Shown: piece by piece, positions 11,148 through 62,821 of the stretch
Layout: every line of letters begins with the position of its first letter
Position numbering within the stretch: the stretch's first letter is position 1
Origin: Brachyhypopomus gauderio
Lineage: Eukaryota; Chordata; Actinopteri; Gymnotiformes; Hypopomidae
DNA length: 64,000 nt
NCBI RefSeq assembly: GCF_052324685.1
Contig: NC_135219.1
Span: 19,545,985-19,609,984 of the forward strand
Direction of reading: 5' to 3'
Notes under the pieces: generated by a model
Databases searched by the model: none
What the model was told of the DNA's origin: nothing
The model's input: the letters and a program-made list of their open reading frames with translations, nothing else
Made by a program: the position numbers and the translations under genes

Positions 11148-12710
11148 TTCTGCTGAAAGGCCTCCTGAGACTCGGGTGTGACCTTCGCACTCATCATTTT
11201 CTGCTTCTTTCTTTTCCTTTGCTTTCTAACAATGGAAAGAACACAATACTGTCCAAGTTTACGAAATGTTTGTGGACAACAGACGTAAAAATATCATTTT
11301 AAACAATACAAATCCAAAGCCCAACAGTTCTACATTTGAAAAAACCTTTCACTGCACAGACAGTTTTTGTTCATTTTTTTCCCTCTCGGTAAAAGGCACA
11401 TTAGGAGTTACAAAAATTGAGCACACAAGGGAGAGGGGCGTAATGAGTGACCGGGGAGGCAAATCTGATCACCAGATCCACACATTAACCACAACGCAGG
11501 CAATTGAACTGCAGGCGGTACTTTGATGAAGGGCCTAACTACATCAGACACATAGATTATGACAAGTTCAAATCTAACGACATCCACAACAATAGATGCA
11601 TCGATGGCTTGTCCCATAAAATCACTTGGCTTACAGCAGCATGCACGAGTAGCGATCCATGTTTCATGTTTCTTCAAAGTCAGCATACTATCTGCATGTG
11701 GGGCCCGTGTGTTTTCAGTGTGCGTATTAAAGCGTCTCTTCCTTAGAATAACTCAATCGCAAGTGACTAATATATCAGCATAATTTATTCCAAAATTAAC
11801 AAATTTTAAAACATTTTCCACATGGCTATGTTGCCTTTACTACACGTGGATCTAGTTTACATTATTCATCAAGTTGTTCCCTCTCTTATCTCCATGCTAT
11901 AGTATCTCGCTCCCACACCTTAAGCTGTGAACATGCCTTAGTTTGTCACCAGCAGGGCTCTGCACTGATCTGTAATATAGACATAGATCTGTAGATCACT
12001 TTGGATCAGAGGGAGCAACTGAAATAAAATCTTTTGGATTCCACACGGTTTAGCAGAACTGTCATAATTAATCATTCTAAATAATCCTACTAGCATATAA
12101 TAATACCATTTTGAGTTGTTTGGCTCTAAAAAACCTCCACCATCATTATCTGCTGGCTACATAATGTATAAAGACGTTCTTTAAATTAAGCCTCTCTTGC
12201 CATCTCAAATGGCATTGACATCAGCATCATTATAATCCACTGTAATCCCATGTCTGTCCTAAAGGTAATCCAGGTTAATAAAGTGCCCAGTGGTGGAAAT
12301 GTGTCTCACCTACAGCTCGAGCCCAAGTACCCACACCCCACACGAGTATATCTTACCGTGTGTTTTCTATGTAGATACTGAATTTCTCTTTTCTACATTC
12401 CACATATGGTGGTAATATTTTTCTTTATTTGTGATGTTCTATATTATGACAAAATAATGAACGTAAGAGAGATATACACCACAGGAGGGTGCCTGATGCT
12501 GCAAACCTACCCGCCTTTAAGTCTCTCCATCACTTCATGGTGAAAATGACTATCCATGTGCTTATTCATCTGCTGCTCAGAAGGAAAAGAAAATGAATGG
12601 AAACGTTTAGGTTACCAGACTGAACCGGGGAGATTTGTATATTTTTACAATGTATATCCTTTTAACTTCCAATATTTTTGATCTGATATCTTTCCCAGAG
12701 CTACAGTGGT
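11148..12710. other. Upstream region of the minus-strand gene; nothing else recognised
   Basis: It should hold the 5' UTR and promoter of the unrecognised gene, whose ATG is at 11147. The plus-strand ORFs of 74-93 codons between 11021 and 11783 have no splice context or family resemblance. The sequence is AT-rich and unremarkable to me. Confidence 0.4.
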
Positions 12711-44920: not shown

Positions 44921-47703
44921 CTATGCATGTCCAATAACTGCTAAGATGAGCATTGTGGTGGCCAAGAGACTGATGGACATCTGTATTCTTCCAGCATTTC
45001 CACCTGTGGTAAGGAATATACATAGTTACAGTATGCTACAGTAAGATTACTGAGATCTGTATTTGATATGTGACGCTTTTATAACATGAACTTTACTATA
45101 AGGATAGTATTTGCTGAAGGAAACGCAAAAATATATTTGATGTGTGGTTTAAAAATGTGCAGAAAATAGCTTCTGAGATTGGCTGGTTTATCCTGACACA
45201 CCAGGATAGGTGTGGATTGGTGTTTTTGTTCGGGAAACCGCATTGCATTTATACTGAGATACCTAGCGGCTCACCCTTACAGTCAACAAGCCAATAAATG
45301 ACATGGCTGTACAGTAAGATTAGTGGACTTACCAGGACCAAAGTCATCCACCACCATGCCTTCAGTGTCACTAAGGCTGCCATTGTTTGGGGCTGGCTTT
45401 ACACCCAACAACTTGCACATTAGTGGGTAGATACTGACACTGTCGAAAGGCTCAGCTAAGAAGTTTTTCTTGAAGTCTGGTCCAAATGCTCTAAATATTG
45501 CTTTCATGTCCATTTCCTGGTTACTGAAGCCATGGTCCCCTTTGTTAACGTAGAAGATGTACCTCTGCACAAAAAAGTATATACAATATGTATTAAAATA
45601 TATACATTTAAAATTGATTGGCACTTAAAATGTTATAGCGAGGGGAAAAGCTTTTATTTGAAAGAGGTATATATCTTACCGAATTCAAATTGAAACCTAG
45701 GTCTCCAATAAGAACAATATCTTGTATTCTACTGTTCTTTGCAATATGAAAATGTTCAGGAATATCTTCTTTCTTGTAGACAGTTAGGTTTGGATGGGCA
45801 TTCCGAAGAGCATCAAAAACTTCCTGCTCTTTACCTTCTGTGGGTCTTAACATCCCAAATCCCCCATAGTCGAGCAGTTCAAAATAGCTCAAATTCTTGA
45901 AATTTATGTAATTGGAGAGTTTGATTTCCTCCACCATGGGACTCTTCTTAATGGTGGTCATGCCATGATCTGAGGTGATGATGACATTAAGGTGGTCAGA
46001 TAACTTGTTCTTTTGTATAGACTCTATGAGGTACCCTATGGTGCGGTCAATCTGTTCAATGATCTTCCTTCTCTCGGGCGTCTCTGGTCCTACGCTGTGG
46101 CCGACATTGTCTGGTTCCCCGTAGTAAAGAGTGACAAAGTCAAAGTTCTCTTTGGTGTACCATCCCATAACTGTATCGATTTTCTCACGCCACTCTGTTT
46201 CATTATCATCAGGGTGATTAAAATTCTCTACCAAGGATCGTTCCACAGACTGCCCCGTATAATTAACTCCACCACCAGGATAAAAATACGAGGCAGTCTT
46301 GAGGCCCTGTAAAGCATGCAGTAAGAGGAATATTATTACACTTCACAGACTGTCATACTTTAATGCTAGTAGTAAATGTGCAGCAAACGTAGCCTTAGAC
46401 TACTGCTTACCTGATTTTGAGCTGTTATCCACAGGGGCAATGCACCATTGTCCCACCACTCAGATCGCTTCAGTGTTGTTTTATGAAGTAACTTCGAGCG
46501 AGTTGTGGAATTGAACATCATGTTGTGGACTACACCATGATCCTCTATCCACCTTCCTGCATCAAAAAGCAGACAGAATATTTTTCTTGCAGTGGCAGAC
46601 GATTGCAGATGTGATGTTTAAAACGATAGTCAGCCATAGGTTCACTAAAATTTAATCCAGGCATCCCAAAACCAAAGCATATTCTATAAATATAAACCAA
46701 AGAATGCAGTCACAAATGCACTGGAACAGTAATGCTTAACAGAAGTAGAAGGACTTGACAGTGTGAGGACAAACAAAGACATAAAAACAATGAGTCTGTG
46801 ATATGAGACATGGTACATGTAAACCTGCACTGCAAGTCAGTGGTCAAATCCACTGGTCTCCCAGAGAGGGAGTGACCAAAGATAAGCACAAACTTGATGT
46901 AATAATTTTTCCTGGCTATCTATACTTATTTAACCTTTGATATCTTCTGGAAATGGATCTGGAAATGGATCTAGGTAAGAACAGGTCCAACAAGGATTGA
47001 AGAAGAGACTATGAACTCAATTTAAAAAGAAATCTTATCAGAGATCTTCGAAGTATCTGACCCTTGTGCCTCACCTGCACATATTTTAACAGTGTAACTC
47101 AAAAAATGAATTAATGAGTACATAATTATATACAATACATATTATAAAATGTGTGTTTAAATATCTGCTGGTCCTAATTAAAGTCCTAATTGTGTAACCC
47201 TCTATAACTGGGGTTATCGTGTCTCAAGCACATGATAATCCCAAGGTTTGCAGTAGAGAACAACTCATCCTCTAAGAATGGACAAGAATTGTACTTGCTT
47301 TAGTACCATAAGTGTCAGAACACAAGTGTCTAACACTGTAATGGAGATGTTTAATATTCATATTGGTTTATGAATAGTATTCTCTTAAACCCTAAACATG
47401 TTTCTATATAGCAATCACATTGATAATTATACAGGAGTTCATTGAACGTTTCTTACCAGTAATAGTAGTAAAATGGGACGGAGATGTCATAGTGATCATT
47501 GGTGGTGTAACATATTTTGCCTTCACGCCCTCTTGTACCAGCTTGTCCAGATTTGGTGTATCAACATCTTGATCATAGTCCCATCTGAAACCATCGAAAG
47601 ACAATAAGAGTAACTTGTTACATTTCCCCTTACCTATGTTGGACAAAGGCTTGCTGTCCACACAGAGGGAAAACACAAAGACCAGCAGAATCTCCAGCTT
47701 CAT
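44921..47703 (-). CDS. enpp7: ENPP7-like ectonucleotide pyrophosphatase/phosphodiesterase (alkaline sphingomyelinase type)
   Basis: Five exons, 47703-47457, 46556-46411, 46306-45680, 45564-45333 and 45003-44921, join in phase to 444 residues (human about 458). A hydrophobic signal peptide (MKLEILLVFVFSLC) leads the protein. Metal and nucleophile residues of the NPP fold are all present: SFDGFRWDY, the threonine in MTSPSHFT, PDNVGHSVGPE, TSDHGMT and KGDHGF. The last short exon encodes a hydrophobic stretch (ISLLATTMLILAVIGHA), probably the C-terminal anchor. In mammals ENPP7 is a brush-border ectoenzyme that hydrolyses sphingomyelin and lysophospholipids. VDTPNLD, WWDNG and the anchor favour ENPP7 over ENPP6; a fish-specific ENPP7 duplicate is equally possible. 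Confidence 0.92.
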
Positions 47704-50251
47704 ATTGAGAGTCAAGATGAGAGTAGATGTCTGCTCTTTATAGTCCTCACAGGGCCAGATAACGTTGTGCTGAACACCGTTTATCACAGCTGGCAAGATA
47801 GAAAAATCTTTGACCTTTATGAATTTTCTGCAACCAATGAGAATTTTCAGTGTAATACTGAACACTATAGTGCTGGGAATGTGCAGAACTGCTAATTACA
47901 TTCAGAAATTATTCTGCCTAGTTGATTGCGACTAAATGCCAGTCTTTCAAGATTCCTTTTCCATAATATAGTGTAATTCTTATATGAGCCATGAAAGGCT
48001 GCAGTCTTTCAAGACGTGGACTAATAAACACTTTGACTGGGATGAATTATCACATCTGTAAAACTAGGAATACATTACAATACAACAGGGGTGAAGCAAA
48101 TTAGAGTGGTCAGCCAGAAATTAAATGCATTGTACTCTTCACCGTGGTTGACTAATAAATTCACATGTCCCCTGTATTAGTATCAACGGGACAATCAATA
48201 GTCTGCATCCTTTATTTAGCATTACAATCTACAATATCAGACAAGCCATTAGTAAGTCTAAATCCACCAATGAGCCTGTGTCCTTTCTATCAGCACATAA
48301 AGTTGTCATGTCAAGTATGGTAATAAATGAAATGGGTGTAAATACAGAGTCTGATATGGTATCAGTTTTAACATTTAATAATAATAACAATAAGAATAAT
48401 AATAGCAACAACAACAATAATAATGTGGTGCCTTTCACGATCTCAAGGATACTACACACACACACACACACACGCACACACGCACACACACACACAGACA
48501 AAACCCCATCATGTTATGGACTACACCATTTGATACCACTGACCATTAATTTCTTAGAGATAAACTTGAGAGATTGAGCTCTCAGGAACAGTCCTAATAT
48601 GGTTCAGTCTGTACATGCGATGCAAGAATTGCTTGATGATGTAGGAACAGCAAATCTATCTGATATGCAGCAGTGTTACAACATGAGCAGAACTCTGAGA
48701 CTGTTAGTAATTAGTCATAACTGTTGTTATCTTTACGTCTCACACATATAAACTCCAGGAGGAAGACTTTTTATCATTTCACTTTTATTATTTTCAAAGG
48801 TTGATTGCAAGCTGCTTATCTCCAATTCAGTCAATCAAAATATACCTACGAGCAAGATTTAGTGTGCTTTAAGATTACCATTTTCTTGAACAATACTTAT
48901 TATAAAGAACTAATGATACCTTTCTTTGATACATCTTTTTGATACAACATTTCATTTCAAATGTGACAGTAGGATCTGCGAACAGCTTGGTAAATTAGAG
49001 ATTACTATGGAATATGCTAAGGATATGACATTTTTGCGACTTGCAGCATGGTTGCAGGGAACTTCGTAGTCAATATGTATTAACCTCTGTATTAATCTCT
49101 AACCATGAAAATGTTTAGGTCGCAAATTTCATTTTTCTTGTAATTACTGAAATTACATTAAAGTATTGCTCTGATAAAACAAGTCTTTTAAAATACTGTC
49201 AATTAGATATTTTAGACCTCTGGTGGTATAACGGTTTTGCCTGCCGTTACCACTGCGTTTTTAACATTTCTTAACAATTTTCAGCAGTACAATACACATC
49301 TATGACCATTTGTTTTAGTTTACTTAGATCTCTTTTCGATTTAATACTTTTATTCAACTCTGTTTGAAGTACTTTGAAATGCTGCTATGAAACGTGCTAG
49401 GCCTATATAAATAAACTTACCGTGCCTAATATGACAAATGTGAGAAATATGAAGTCAGTGTTTTTGTTTTATTGTTTGTTTGTTTTAGTGAATAATGCTA
49501 TTTGTGTAACAAACATTCGGCTGACACTAAAATCAAGAATCTCAAAACTATTATTATTACATACAGGAGTATTCGCGACCTATCGATTAGTCATTTTTTT
49601 GGGGGGGAAGAACACCCTCAAATTGACATAATCTGGCTATTTTGAAATGTATTACAATTTACATAACCTAGCAATTTATCAAAATTTACATAACCTAGCT
49701 ATTTTGAAATGTATTACAATTTACATAACCTAGCAATTTTTCAATTTATTAAAATTTACATAACCAAGCTATTTTGAAATGTATTAAAATGTACATAACC
49801 TAGCTATTTTGAAATGTAATAACATTTATATAACCTAGCTATTTTTCAATTTATAAAAATTTACATAACCTAGCTATTTTGAAATGTATTAAAATTACAT
49901 AATCTAGCTACGTTGAGACGTGTATCCAGCTCTTATGTAGCCGACAGCTGCTCTGTCTCGGCCAGAAAAGCCCTCAAGCACTCATGATTTTGTGAGGCTG
50001 CTTGTTTATAGTCAAATGACCGTAACGGTTAAACTGTAACTACGCGCCGAATGCGTTACACTTCTCGTGTTTCTCGGGGTTTCCAGCACGGCGTGAGCGC
50101 TTTTCTCACGGCAGAATACACGTTAAATAGTGAAAACGCCCCGTATTGCTCCATCAGGTCGATTGGAGGCGGTGGTGCTCGGAGCTTTTACAGCTGAGGT
50201 TCAGGGGAGGAAAAAACCTGAATCGTTCGCTACACATCCGGAGTTTTTTCG
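47704..50251. other. Divergent intergenic region between enpp7-like and laptm4a
   Basis: It contains CA and AAT simple repeats (about 48376-48495) and a 35-bp tandem array. A CpG-richer stretch from about 49910 should be the laptm4a promoter and 5' UTR. No other coding signal was found. Confidence 0.5.
49621..49913. repeat. 35-bp AT-rich tandem repeat, about 8 copies
   Basis: The unit contains tacataacctagctattttg followed by aaatgtattaaaatt. Copies differ at scattered bases (tagcaattt, taaccaagct). The array ends about 370 bp before the laptm4a start. Confidence 0.92.
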
Positions 50252-50278: not shown

Positions 50279-54798
<4,520 letters not shown>

Positions 54799-57700: not shown

Positions 57701-59205
57701 GATTAAAATATATGGAAAATGCACTTTGGAGGCTGTCAGGTCAGTCTAACCAGCCTAAGGCGACTGGCTTTGGCACCAAGTTGAAGGACGGTGGGAGAAC
57801 TTGAAGATTTCTGCTCCTTCGCAAGACCTAAATATTGGTGTTTGCTGTGAGAACTAACACGAGGATCTGAAGTCTACCCTGTGAAGAGGAGACTGTCCAG
57901 GCAGAAACAGGCGTCAGTCAGCCCCCGCGTCTCCTGGCAACCAAATGTTTGCCTTTTCTCTTTTTTTTTTTACGTTTTCACGTTGGAGACACTGCGCACG
58001 GGTCATCCTGATGGTACGATCATTTCTGAGACGGGTCATATCTAAAGCTCTGGTTCATTTAAGGTTGCCTTCTCTTCACCGTTTTCCTTGTGTGTGGCCT
58101 TGTGTGTGCACATGTGCATATGTTTGGTGGAAGAATGTTAAAATAAATGTTGCGTTTGGGAAATGATTTGTGTAATGCTTTGTCACTCCAATGACAAGCC
58201 AGGTTAGCAGACTTAGGGTCTGTACCATTCCGATGGTGAGGTCTGGAACTGTTGACTTAAGCACATCTCACAGGTGTATCAGACAGAGACACATTTCTTA
58301 GGGGCTCTGATATTTTCACCAACATGGTTTGCTGGTTGGCTAGTCTGTGACAACCGGCCTTTTCTAAAAGTCTAGACGTGTCAGTGTATTACTGTGCCTC
58401 TGTTGGACCTAATTTATGTAAATTATGTCAGTCATGCCAAGAATATTTTTATTGACAATTATTTTTTCCACTGATCAACATGAATAATAGGTATAAGATA
58501 TAGTACATACTTAAGACATACTGTATATGTAACTTACAAAACCATATAACTATATAATTATAACTATATAAGTTAACTTTTAATATTGAAAATCATATTG
58601 TAATATAAAAGATAGAAGACATTACAGTGATATAAAAGATGCAGAGAAGGTATGAATATTAAAAGCATGACTGTTGCTCTGAACACTGATCCCATACAGT
58701 TTGAGAAAGAAAAAACTGTCACAGTCACTACAAAATGTCTTTACACATAGATGATTTTCAGCAACGGCATCTAGAAATACATACGGTATGTCCCATGCTC
58801 ACACGCAAGGCCATACACCTTTTTTCTTTAATCTGTTTTCAGATTATATGACATAATCTGGTCACTTTGATCAGAGACACAATAATCATTTACTCTCAAA
58901 TATAATTCTGGATTTACTGTCGAAAGCTAATGGTGGGATGTTGAGAACTTGTGAGAACTTGTTGCCCGTACACTGAAGCTGCTGTGTGGAGGTCCGTGTG
59001 GTCTGTGATGACGCTTTGGTAGCATCGACGAGGAAAGGAGTGTGTTTCTGTGACTCGGTGTCCTACACGGCCGAAACATCAGCCCGGGCGTCACAGAATC
59101 AGAGTGGCCTTCATTAATATAAAAACAGTTAAGGGAACGGGTAACAGTGCGTACATCTGGGTGCTACGGCCAATGAGAGGTCAACACTCACCGAGCCATG
59201 ATCTG
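54799..59205. other. laptm4a 3' UTR and convergent intergenic DNA to matn3
   Basis: The laptm4a 3' UTR probably ends near 55805. The rest holds a hAT MITE, AT-rich DNA and no recognised gene. A reverse AATAAA at 58448-58453 could end the matn3 3' UTR. Confidence 0.5.
56613..56781. mobile_element. hAT-type MITE with 8-bp target-site duplication
   Basis: The element spans 56621-56773 (153 bp). The terminal inverted repeats are CAGGGCCGGAGTGG at the left and, read inward from the right, CAGAGCCAGAGTGG (12 of 14 match). It is flanked by perfect direct repeats CCCAGAAC at 56613-56620 and 56774-56781. An 8-bp duplication with CAG-starting termini is the hAT signature. It has no coding capacity and so is non-autonomous. 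Confidence 0.93.
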
Positions 59206-61393
59206 TCATTTGTGAGCGGCCATCTGCTGTACTTTTCTGGAGAGGTCAGCTAGTTCAGCAGGTGTTAAGGTTACTGCATAGTTGTTTCAGACCCTAGGAG
59301 TTCTCCTTGAACAGTTAATAAACATCACTGTCTTATATACTACATATACTATATACTAATACACCATATATTTTCTCTCTTACATGCTCAAATCAAAGAT
59401 CATCTTCATTCCATAGACAACATTATTTGGTAATTCATTATATATCAATGTACTGTGAGCTTCGATCTTAAACAGTATATAGTACTAAATCATGGTTATA
59501 GCATGGTTATAGCATGATTATAGCATGGTTATATAACATGGTTATATTACTCCGAGTGTAAAGACCAATATTTAATGTCACCCACTAAAAATAAAGGATA
59601 TGCTTGGCATTGATGTCCTGGATGGAGTTTTGTGTCTGCCTCTGGAAGGCCAGTCTGGCTTCACAAATGCAGGGGTCCTGAATCACCTGTGCCTTCAGTT
59701 CTTTACATCAGAGTTAAGCACAGGTGATTAGACAAATGCAACCTGTACTTTCTTCACAATTGCATGGAACTAATCTTGTGATGCTAAAATGTTGTGGGGA
59801 CAATCCGATTTTTATATGATATATGATTCAATTTATATGAATTTTGGATTATGTTATTTTCTTCACATGGATTTCACGGTTTGAAAGCTTTAGTATAAAT
59901 TATACAATAACCGAGACTTTATTGACTCCATAAATGTCCACTCAAAGACCATCTGTGTTCATAAACATAAATGCAACACTTAGCAATAGCTAATGCAATG
60001 CTATGGTTAGGTCATTGCAACATTGCTAGTGTTACATGCTGTTTTGGAAATTGAGCCACAGTGTCGAATCAAAGCTGAATTGATTCACAATACAAACGCA
60101 TTCACAGACAGATGAGGTCTTGCCCAGAAATCAGTGATGATTCTATTTTTCAAATTTCTCTCATATTGAGGTTTTCTACGTTTCTGTGGAAGCCCAATGT
60201 AAATTTCCACTCACCATTACCAATCCATAAACATGGCAATGGATTAACCAATTAAAAAATGCAGACTAGTTACATGAAACACCAACAAACCTTAAAATAA
60301 TCTAACAACCTGGAGCTTCTCAAGTAACTGAGCGAATGAGTCTAATTCTGTAATCTACTACAGGAATATTCAATCTTGGTTATTGAGTGCTGCAACATCC
60401 CTGTAGTTTCTCCAACCACTTTGCCAGGTCACCATTTTTGAGCTGAGCAATCAAGAGTTCTTAACAATGTCTGGATAAGTTTGTCCAGAGTTGAGAACTG
60501 AATTGAACCAATGCTATAAAATTGCTCCATTGTAGTGGTGCTATGTGTCCAAGAGATATTGGAGTTGATAAACCAGACTAGATTGGATTTACCTTAAGGG
60601 GTAAAATTCAAATAAAATGTGAAACTATATGGTAGGGTGCCTGATTGGGGAGAAGATACAGGACTTGTGCTCTCAGTTGAATATCCTGGTGCACCAGTTC
60701 TTACGTGAACACGTTTTCTTGTCTTCATTCAAAACAAAACCCTCCTGGCATTCACAGTGATAGGAGCCATCACTGCTGACACAAATATGGTCGCAGTCAT
60801 GCCCCAGTGCACACTGGTCCAGACCACCCAGACCTGCAAGAAGCTTTGAGTAAGGCACTAAAGAAACATAAATACCACACAAACACATAAAGTCATTTGA
60901 ATTGCCTAGTTCACGGGGTCTTACGTGAACAGGTTTTCTTGTCTTCGTTCAAGACATAGCCCATATTGCATTCACAGTGATAGGAGCCATCACTGCTGAC
61001 ACAAATGTGCTCACAGTCATGTCCTATTACACACTGATCCAGACCTGGAATAAGGTTTAAGCAAGATTTCACACTAAAATATACAATAATATCTGAGAAA
61101 TGTTCTTTCATGACAGCCAGTCTTAAACTACAAAATGGTCATAAAATGGTATGAGTCGAGTCATGACCTTTTATGACACCAGCTAACTCACTGGCACTAC
61201 TGTCCCCATCATCATCACCACTGGCCTTGAAACATGATCTCCTGTCCTCCATCAACACAAAGCCTGGTGGACAAGTGCAGTAGTAGGAGGAGCCACTGCC
61301 CACACACGTGTGCTGACAGTCATGGCCCAGTGCACACGCATCCACACCTGCAACAGGTCACAGCCCTTGAAATACCATATATATATATATATG

Positions 61394-61544: not shown

Positions 61545-62821
61545 TAGAGAGAGAGAGAGAGAGAGAGCACAAAGAACACATCTAGCAACACAGAGAAGAA
61601 GGTCTGAAAATATGTTAAGTGTTAAAATGTTAAGTGTTTTGTAGATACATTAATGAAATTAGTGCTCAGTTAATAAAGGACCTCTCGTCTGAAACGGCCT
61701 GTATTTCTCCAAATCTCGTGTATTACACTACAATTTTTCCTACTTCTACATGTTTATATTTTTACAACAGTACACCTCCTTAATTCCTGGAAAATTCTTA
61801 TATATGTTCCTTTTATGTTTTCTATCATATCAGATTTCTGAGTGAGGATTGGGGCACTATGGTTGGTATAAAATGACTAGCAAAACATTGGATGCAGCTA
61901 GAAGCACGTGGCCCAAGTGCAGCTGTTAGCCAGTCAGGTGTGGGTTATCTAGGTTGCCATTGTCACATTGTGGGGGGGGGGGGGGGGGGGGGGGCCCTAC
62001 CGGTCGCCCCCGGTTACAGCGGCAGCGGTCCTGTTTTTGGTCACGTGATGTTCGTCCCTCAGGTGGGCGGGACCCGTGATCCGTCTCACCTGAGGGTCGT
62101 TTGTTCGTCTATATATGTCTTGTCTTTGTACCAGTTGACTGCTGGTTATTATTTCCTTCATTTGGAACAATGCACGGGTTTTTGGTTTGCACACTTTCTA
62201 TTAAACCATCCTCTTTCCCTGAGACTTGGCGTGATCGCTTCCTTTTTGAGTTGCTCACCCTGCCCGTCACAGCCATTTTGTTTATACACAAGATAAACGC
62301 TCAGACTCGATGAATAAGCTGATACCAAAGTGCCAAGACAGGAAATTACATCATGGTCCAAACATTATAAAGGGGAGAGTCCAGCTGCAACATATTTGTT
62401 GTAAGGGGAAGCATACGCTTCTGGCATAAACCAAAAAAACGTGCGATTCCTGAAAACAAAGTCAGAGTAAATGGTCAGCTAGACTATTCATGTCAGATCT
62501 GTAACGTAAGATCTGTGTATCATTCAAAGTAATTTATATTACTATGCTGCGGTAACATCAGTAATTTATACATGGGTTAGCGATTGGGATATTCTAGTGG
62601 AATGTTCTTCAAGATGTTCCTTGAACTACCTTCACTATCACTGTGGCCGTTGCTGATCCAATTTCTGTGTTGTCCAGTGCCAGGGCCAATATCACTGTGG
62701 ATGGAGCATGTTCTCTGGTCTTCATTCAAGATATAGCCCGGGCGACACTTGCAGAAATAGGAGGGGCCATTTCCAACACAAATATGCTGACAGTCATGCC
62801 CCATTTCACAGGCGTGCGCAC
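59206..62821 (-). CDS. matn3: Matrilin-3, 3' part: four EGF modules and coiled coil
   Basis: Cartilage extracellular-matrix adaptor. Exons on the minus strand: 62821-62630 (EGF1 plus linker), 61347-61192 (EGF2), 61044-60925 (EGF3), 60833-60705 (EGF4), 59700-59602 and 59252-59206 (coiled coil, stop TGA). All are phase 1. Each EGF module has the matrilin pattern C-x3-GHDC-x-H-x-C...Y-x-C-x-C...C, e.g. [20 protein letters not shown]. The vWA domain and signal peptide lie beyond 64000. The tail carries [12 protein letters not shown], whose cysteines make interchain bonds, and the heptads [15 protein letters not shown], which oligomerise the subunits. The last intron is U12-type AT-AC. Four EGF modules and laptm4a next door point to MATN3 rather than MATN1, 2 or 4. 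The alternative EGF2 donor (61168) is weaker. Confidence 0.9.
59253..59601 (-). other. matn3: U12-type AT-AC intron of matn3
   Basis: The 349-nt intron starts ATATCCTTT (59601-59593), the exact U12 AT-AC donor consensus. It has the branch-like motif AACCTTAAC (59272-59264) and ends AC at 59254-59253, about 12 nt past the branch A. The join keeps phase and completes the coiled coil. Confidence 0.93.
61377..61563. repeat. Long (AT)n with inverted-repeat core, then (AG)n
   Basis: About 145 bp of AT/TA dinucleotides in a matn3 intron, followed by GA repeats. ATGGTGTGTATATAT near the left end is mirrored as ATATACACACCAT near the right end, so the whole tract is palindromic and could fold into a large hairpin. 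The Tyr/Ile repeat ORFs here are artefacts. Confidence 0.93.
61956..62276 (+). mobile_element. Solo LTR with 5-bp target-site duplication (forward orientation)
   Basis: The LTR occupies 61961-62271 (311 bp), flanked by GCCAT at 61956-61960 and 62272-62276. It starts TGTCAC and ends GTCACA, with CTATATATG at 62109-62117 and ATTAAA at 62200-62205 in promoter-to-poly(A) order. A G20 run (about 61973-61994) sits near its left end. It shares long blocks (gcgtgatcgcttcctttttg; the region around ctcacctgagggtcgtttgt) with the reversed copy at 24200-24496. It lies in the matn3 intron between EGF1 and EGF2. Confidence 0.9.

Follow-up and report, generated by a model that had tools for sequence, protein, structure and literature searches.

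The question raised by this locus is where the coiled coil of a matrilin-type gene ends. On the minus strand of the window, the whole stretch of 64,000 nucleotides of Brachyhypopomus gauderio DNA that was analysed, the exon that opens the coiled coil has no GT donor at its end and runs into a stop codon after a few heptad residues. The answer argued here, to which we give a probability of about 97%, is that the exon is followed by the last coding intron of teleost matrilin-3, a U12-type AT-AC intron that goes back to the matrilin ancestor.

Identity of the gene

Four exons upstream of the coiled coil encode EGF-type stretches, and all four are found in the protein joined from the exons of the window. 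Their limits were set by AG/GT bounds and translation.

62630..62821, minus strand: EGF-type exon, phase 1-1
61192..61347, minus strand: EGF-type exon, phase 1-1
60925..61044, minus strand: EGF-type exon, phase 1-1
60705..60833, minus strand: EGF-type exon, phase 1-1, the final one before the coiled coil

The vWA domain lies beyond the window (L007:3502-4131; VWA, 171.7 bits). In the stretch that separates the final EGF exon from the coiled coil, no second vWA domain was seen in the translations read by eye, and positions 59701-60672 hold no minus-strand open frame of 60 residues or more. The domain order is thus vWA, EGF repeats and coiled coil, as for matrilin-3. The gene neighbourhood was also informative. 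A LAPTM4-type match is present at 53786-54070 of the window (32.7 bits vs. a cut-off of 25.2, with four stops inside), while WDR35-type exons adjoin a second matn3-like locus of the genome, C25 (one scores 83.1 bits vs. 80, and most single exons fall below the family cut-off). The two fish MATN3 copies are described as retaining opposite sides of the tetrapod neighbourhood of LAPTM4A, MATN3 and WDR35 (PMC1464127), a pattern that the neighbours of these two loci match. A further LAPTM4-type match, about 23 kb away from locus C7, fits the pairing of MATN2 with LAPTM4B given in the same source (PMC1464127). The identification as matrilin-3, already made in the first-pass annotation, is supported by domain order and neighbours together.

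The number of EGF repeats stated for matrilin-3 is four (PMC2427018). Besides the four in the window, one repeat is found just outside it, slightly under the Pfam cut-offs, and DNA similarity points to a possible sixth. About 1.2 kb upstream of the first EGF exon of the window (62630-62821) is a close copy of it (L007:961-1293, with its EGF part just beyond the window), in which the unusual tail SNGHSDSEG recurs. A further stretch is related (L007:2401-2500, 76% over 100 nt). Given these copies, the gene may possess more than the stated four repeats.

Elsewhere in the window, nine of ten long open frames were without a Pfam match at E 0.01, and one of five further frames gave a match. Open frames at 45608-46342 and 47404-47895 (minus strand), which match type I phosphodiesterase / nucleotide pyrophosphatase, are probably exons of an ENPP-like gene.

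Structure of the proposed last coding intron

The features on which the reading rests are as follows.

59602..59700, minus strand: first coiled-coil exon, 33 residues plus one base; starts after AG, no GT at its end
59253..59601, minus strand: U12-type AT-AC intron, 349 nt, phase 1 (sequence signals, intron enumeration)
59594..59601, minus strand: donor ATATCCTT (+1 to +8), exact to the published consensus (PMC2831892)
59585..59587, minus strand: in-frame TAG met on intron retention, after HILYF (translation)
59264..59271, minus strand: branch motif ACCTTAAC, 7/8 to the published TCCTTAAC (PMC2831892)
59253..59254, minus strand: AC acceptor (motif at intron end)
59206..59252, minus strand: last coding exon; finishes the split Leu codon, then 14 residues and the stop TGA (59208-59206)
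58448..58453, minus strand: AATAAA polyadenylation-like hexamer 3′ of the stop (motif only)

The first coiled-coil exon begins at the sole AG within 60600-59690 that preserves both phase 1 and an open frame, and the acceptor there (gatgtaaag) has no clear pyrimidine tract. At its other end, the exon continues into ATATCCTTT; bases one to eight of this sequence are identical to the U12 donor consensus in the literature (PMC2831892). Exon, intron and exon read aatgccaagC / ATATCCTTTATT ... gtAACCTTAACacctgctgAAC / TAGCTGACC on the minus strand. The first-pass annotation had proposed an exact U12 AT-AC donor, a branch motif, and an AC acceptor that removes 349 nt and keeps phase 1. Donor (ATATCCTT at 59601-59594), acceptor, length and phase were all confirmed (59601-59253). 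The branch motif is present at 12-13 nt before the acceptor end, with the correction that it agrees with TCCTTAAC at seven of eight positions. Its candidate branch adenosines, 59266 and 59265, are 13 and 12 nt ahead of the final base of the intron; the optimum is put at 11-13 nt, with either A usable as branch (PMC3584512). Donor, branch site, spacing and acceptor at 59253-59601 are those of a U12-type AT-AC intron.

Splicing of this intron gives a C-terminus of 19 residues that is followed by the TGA at 59208-59206. The unspliced frame, as had been pointed out, reads ...INAKHILYF and then meets the TAG at 59587-59585. Two ATTAAA hexamers (58832 and 58584) lie closer to the stop than the AATAAA listed above. 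The acceptor itself is of a tandem form, AC/TAG at 59254-59250, in which a frame-preserving AG lies 3 nt past the AC; ACTAG is also found at C7.

Coding evidence from the coiled coil

The peptide of the first coiled-coil exon alone scores 41.1 bits against the Pfam Matrilin_ccoil profile (PF10393), and its genome match stops at profile position 31. The spliced peptide scores 54.8 bits (51.3 bits inside the 246-residue joined protein) and the read-through peptide 43.5 bits, against a curated cut-off of 26.3. The earlier statement that the spliced form gives a proper coiled-coil end therefore stands on these scores and on its core residues, TIILLVM. The companion statement, that GT-AG-only annotation would truncate the oligomerisation domain, stands in part: the domain would be shortened, but it would not be missed, since the read-through peptide is above the cut-off.

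The seven core heptad positions were assigned by spacing in PDB 1AQ5, which we take to be the coiled coil of chicken cartilage matrix protein (matrilin-1). They read VILLVIL in 1AQ5, TIILLVM in the spliced protein and TIIHY-- in the read-through form. Splicing exchanges the five residues HILYF for 15 residues and supplies four of the seven core positions. This bears on the simplest alternative, in which there is no intron and the exon ends at the TAG, leaving a short coiled coil that closes with INAKHILYF. The frame is indeed open up to the TAG, and the 43.5 bits of the resulting peptide would pass as a Pfam match. That reading forfeits the four core positions, however, and it leaves unaccounted for both an 11-residue coding stretch and a set of U12 signals common to all five cut-off loci described below; we regard it as highly improbable.

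A second alternative accepts the donor and places the acceptor elsewhere in frame, at the AG at 59250 (giving PDLSRKV...) or the AC at 59262 (giving PAELADL...). Both keep the frame, and the AG, 3 nt past the preferred AC, is 15 nt from the branch A. Their Matrilin_ccoil scores are 45.5 bits for the AG and 50.5 bits for the AC at 59262, in each case less than 54.8, and the core register is lost in both (TIIPSQA and TIIPLSV, respectively). The AG would moreover give AT-AG termini, which are described as disfavoured, and lies outside the 11-13 nt optimum (PMC3584512), while the AC at 59262 ends just 3-4 nt from the branch adenosines. Use of either acceptor is thus very unlikely.

The same question was put to introns in general by enumerating 1985 candidates (690 AT-AC, 602 AT-AG, 518 GC-AG and 175 GT-AG), with donors from exon start +20 to 59581 and lengths of 61 to 1500 nt, and scoring each against the 1AQ5 stretch. 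The AT-AC intron 59601-59253 ranks first, by a narrow margin (62 vs. 60, 60, 60 and 59), and 160 of the 1985 exceed the read-through score of 49. Completion of the coiled coil by a major-class GT-AG or GC-AG intron would have frame-keeping GT donors available at 59664 and 59585, the latter being the last base of the TAG. Yet none of the 175 GT-AG introns beats read-through (best 49), and the best of the 518 GC-AG introns reaches 54 vs. 62, which makes a major-class intron the least credible of the alternatives. The TAG read-through, the AG at 59250, the AC at 59262 and the GT-AG and GC-AG introns were accordingly rejected on Pfam scores, 1AQ5 scores and heptads.

Chance expectation of the splice motifs

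The donor ATATCCTT occurs seven times in the 64-kb window, against a mean of 2.53 across 100 shuffles, none of which reaches seven, and CCTTAAC occurs eight times against a mean of 7.79; from these counts, neither motif is rare here. The donor copies are at 12654, 17939, 24313, 41217, 49019, 59594 and 63202, and the six outside the matn3 intron were viewed in context only. The donor combined with CCTTAAC within 1 kb and an AC at 8-17 nt past the branch A is found once in the window, at the matn3 site, and 7 of 200 windows simulated with a first-order model contain it at least once. Motif counts by themselves were not taken as proof of an intron. Chance is made implausible by the placement of the signals at the exact codon of the matrilin coiled coil and by their repetition in all five cut-off loci. 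Counted against the preferred U12-type intron are the branch site one base off consensus, the recurrence of the motifs in the window, the simulated windows just given, the narrow margin of the first rank, and an AG past the AC in four of the five loci.

The same arrangement in paralogous loci

The PF10393 profile was searched against the source genome (796,539,105 bases in 840 contigs). Among the best-scored candidates, at least 13 matches were obtained at E up to 10, and five were above the cut-off: C6, C9 (the matn3 gene of the window), C25, C8 and C7. In our reading, C25 is a further matn3 copy and C7 is matn2-like, and C6 would be matn1-like and C8 matn4-like. All five matches stop at position 30 or 31 of the 45 in the profile, which is the position of the intron. 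At each of the five loci a phase-1 ATATCC donor follows a Lys codon, giving a Lys/Leu split. The full donor ATATCCTT is present in four of them, and C7 has ATATCCTC. Acceptors were scanned at 8-17 nt beyond branch-like motifs, with tails of 10-35 residues. Every locus has a branch motif resembling TCCTTRAC and, beyond it, an AC acceptor, with 12, 12, 10, 11 and 11 nt from branch A to AC (C6, C9, C25, C8 and C7, respectively), and coding resumes with Leu each time. In this limited scan, four of the five loci also showed an AG that lies a few bases 3′ of the AC and keeps a short open frame.

The introns are 192 (C6), 349 (C9), 177 (C25), 858 (C8) and 1291 nt (C7) long, and comparison of their interiors gave no significant similarity (best E 0.13), which fits with selection on the splice signals. 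Two of the eight sub-cut-off matches, at C6 and C7, sit at the next-exon start of a cut-off locus; at another, on L013, a donor scan found none. The C25 copy (L005), whose tail is 51% identical to that of the window gene, seems by eye to have one EGF exon only between vWA and coiled coil.

Proposed splicing and the possibility of retention

The genome carries genes for U11 (112.9 bits) and U6atac (130.6 bits). The U11 gene starts with AAAAAGGGC, has AAAAAGG near its 5′-end and, with pairing counted by hand, can pair with CCTTT of the donor. The U6atac gene has AAGGAGA near its 5′-end, of which six of seven bases are pairable with TATCCTT of the donor by the same count. In the mechanism that is most likely, ordinary minor-class splicing, the U11 and U12 snRNPs would recognise donor and branch, U6atac would pair with the donor afterwards, and the minor spliceosome would join C to TA, thereby creating the Leu codon for one of the core heptad positions. 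A message spliced in this way would encode the full coiled coil, which would oligomerise the protein. Actual splicing, the common ancestry of the matrilin introns and oligomerisation are what we infer from sequence.

Retention of the intron would stop the frame inside it in four of the five loci. The 192-nt intron of C6 (L008) is a multiple of three with no in-frame stops, so its retention would insert 64 codons in the coiled coil without truncation. In matn3, retention of the last minor-class intron could conceivably act as a switch, although we consider this unlikely. If there is no 3′ UTR intron, a message that kept the intron would have no later exon junction. Such messages should escape nonsense-mediated decay, and the matrilin-3 made from them would be stable but, with its coiled coil cut short, would oligomerise poorly. 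In mouse tissues (PMC6717393), and likewise in zrsr2-mutant zebrafish (PMC9501576), the minor introns that are retained are reported to be the shorter ones, and the short matn3 introns (349 and 177 nt) would thus favour retention. The terms 'matn' and 'matrilin' are absent from the main texts of both papers.

Comparison with known matrilin introns

A literature search on matn3 with a minor intron found no paper. AT-AC U12-type introns have reportedly been described in mouse Matn3, by the title of a report by Wagener in 2000, and in human MATN2 and the matrilin family, by that of a report by Muratoglu in 2000. Such introns in matrilin genes are published family biology, and the first-pass view of the locus as conservation rather than a new system was right. 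The 1AQ5 coiled coil aligns to the window gene without gaps over 39 residues; the two share Lys-Leu at the split codon, and their core patterns are similar. It differs in that a single-sequence search is weak (E 0.028) and in having Val at the first core position, where the window gene has Thr. The C6, C25, C8 and C7 loci resemble the window gene in ATATCC donor, phase, split codon, branch-like motif and AC, and are unlike it in intron length and, for C7, also in donor. As for mechanism, the matn3 intron adds nothing new. What it offers is a clear case, from a fish, of a class of introns that would escape gene finders limited to GT-AG, and all five matrilin loci found in the genome have one. 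In the mammalian genes the intron presumably occupies the same codon position. The AT-AC termini and the U12 type are alike in the fish and mammalian introns, and nothing could be shown to set them apart in kind.
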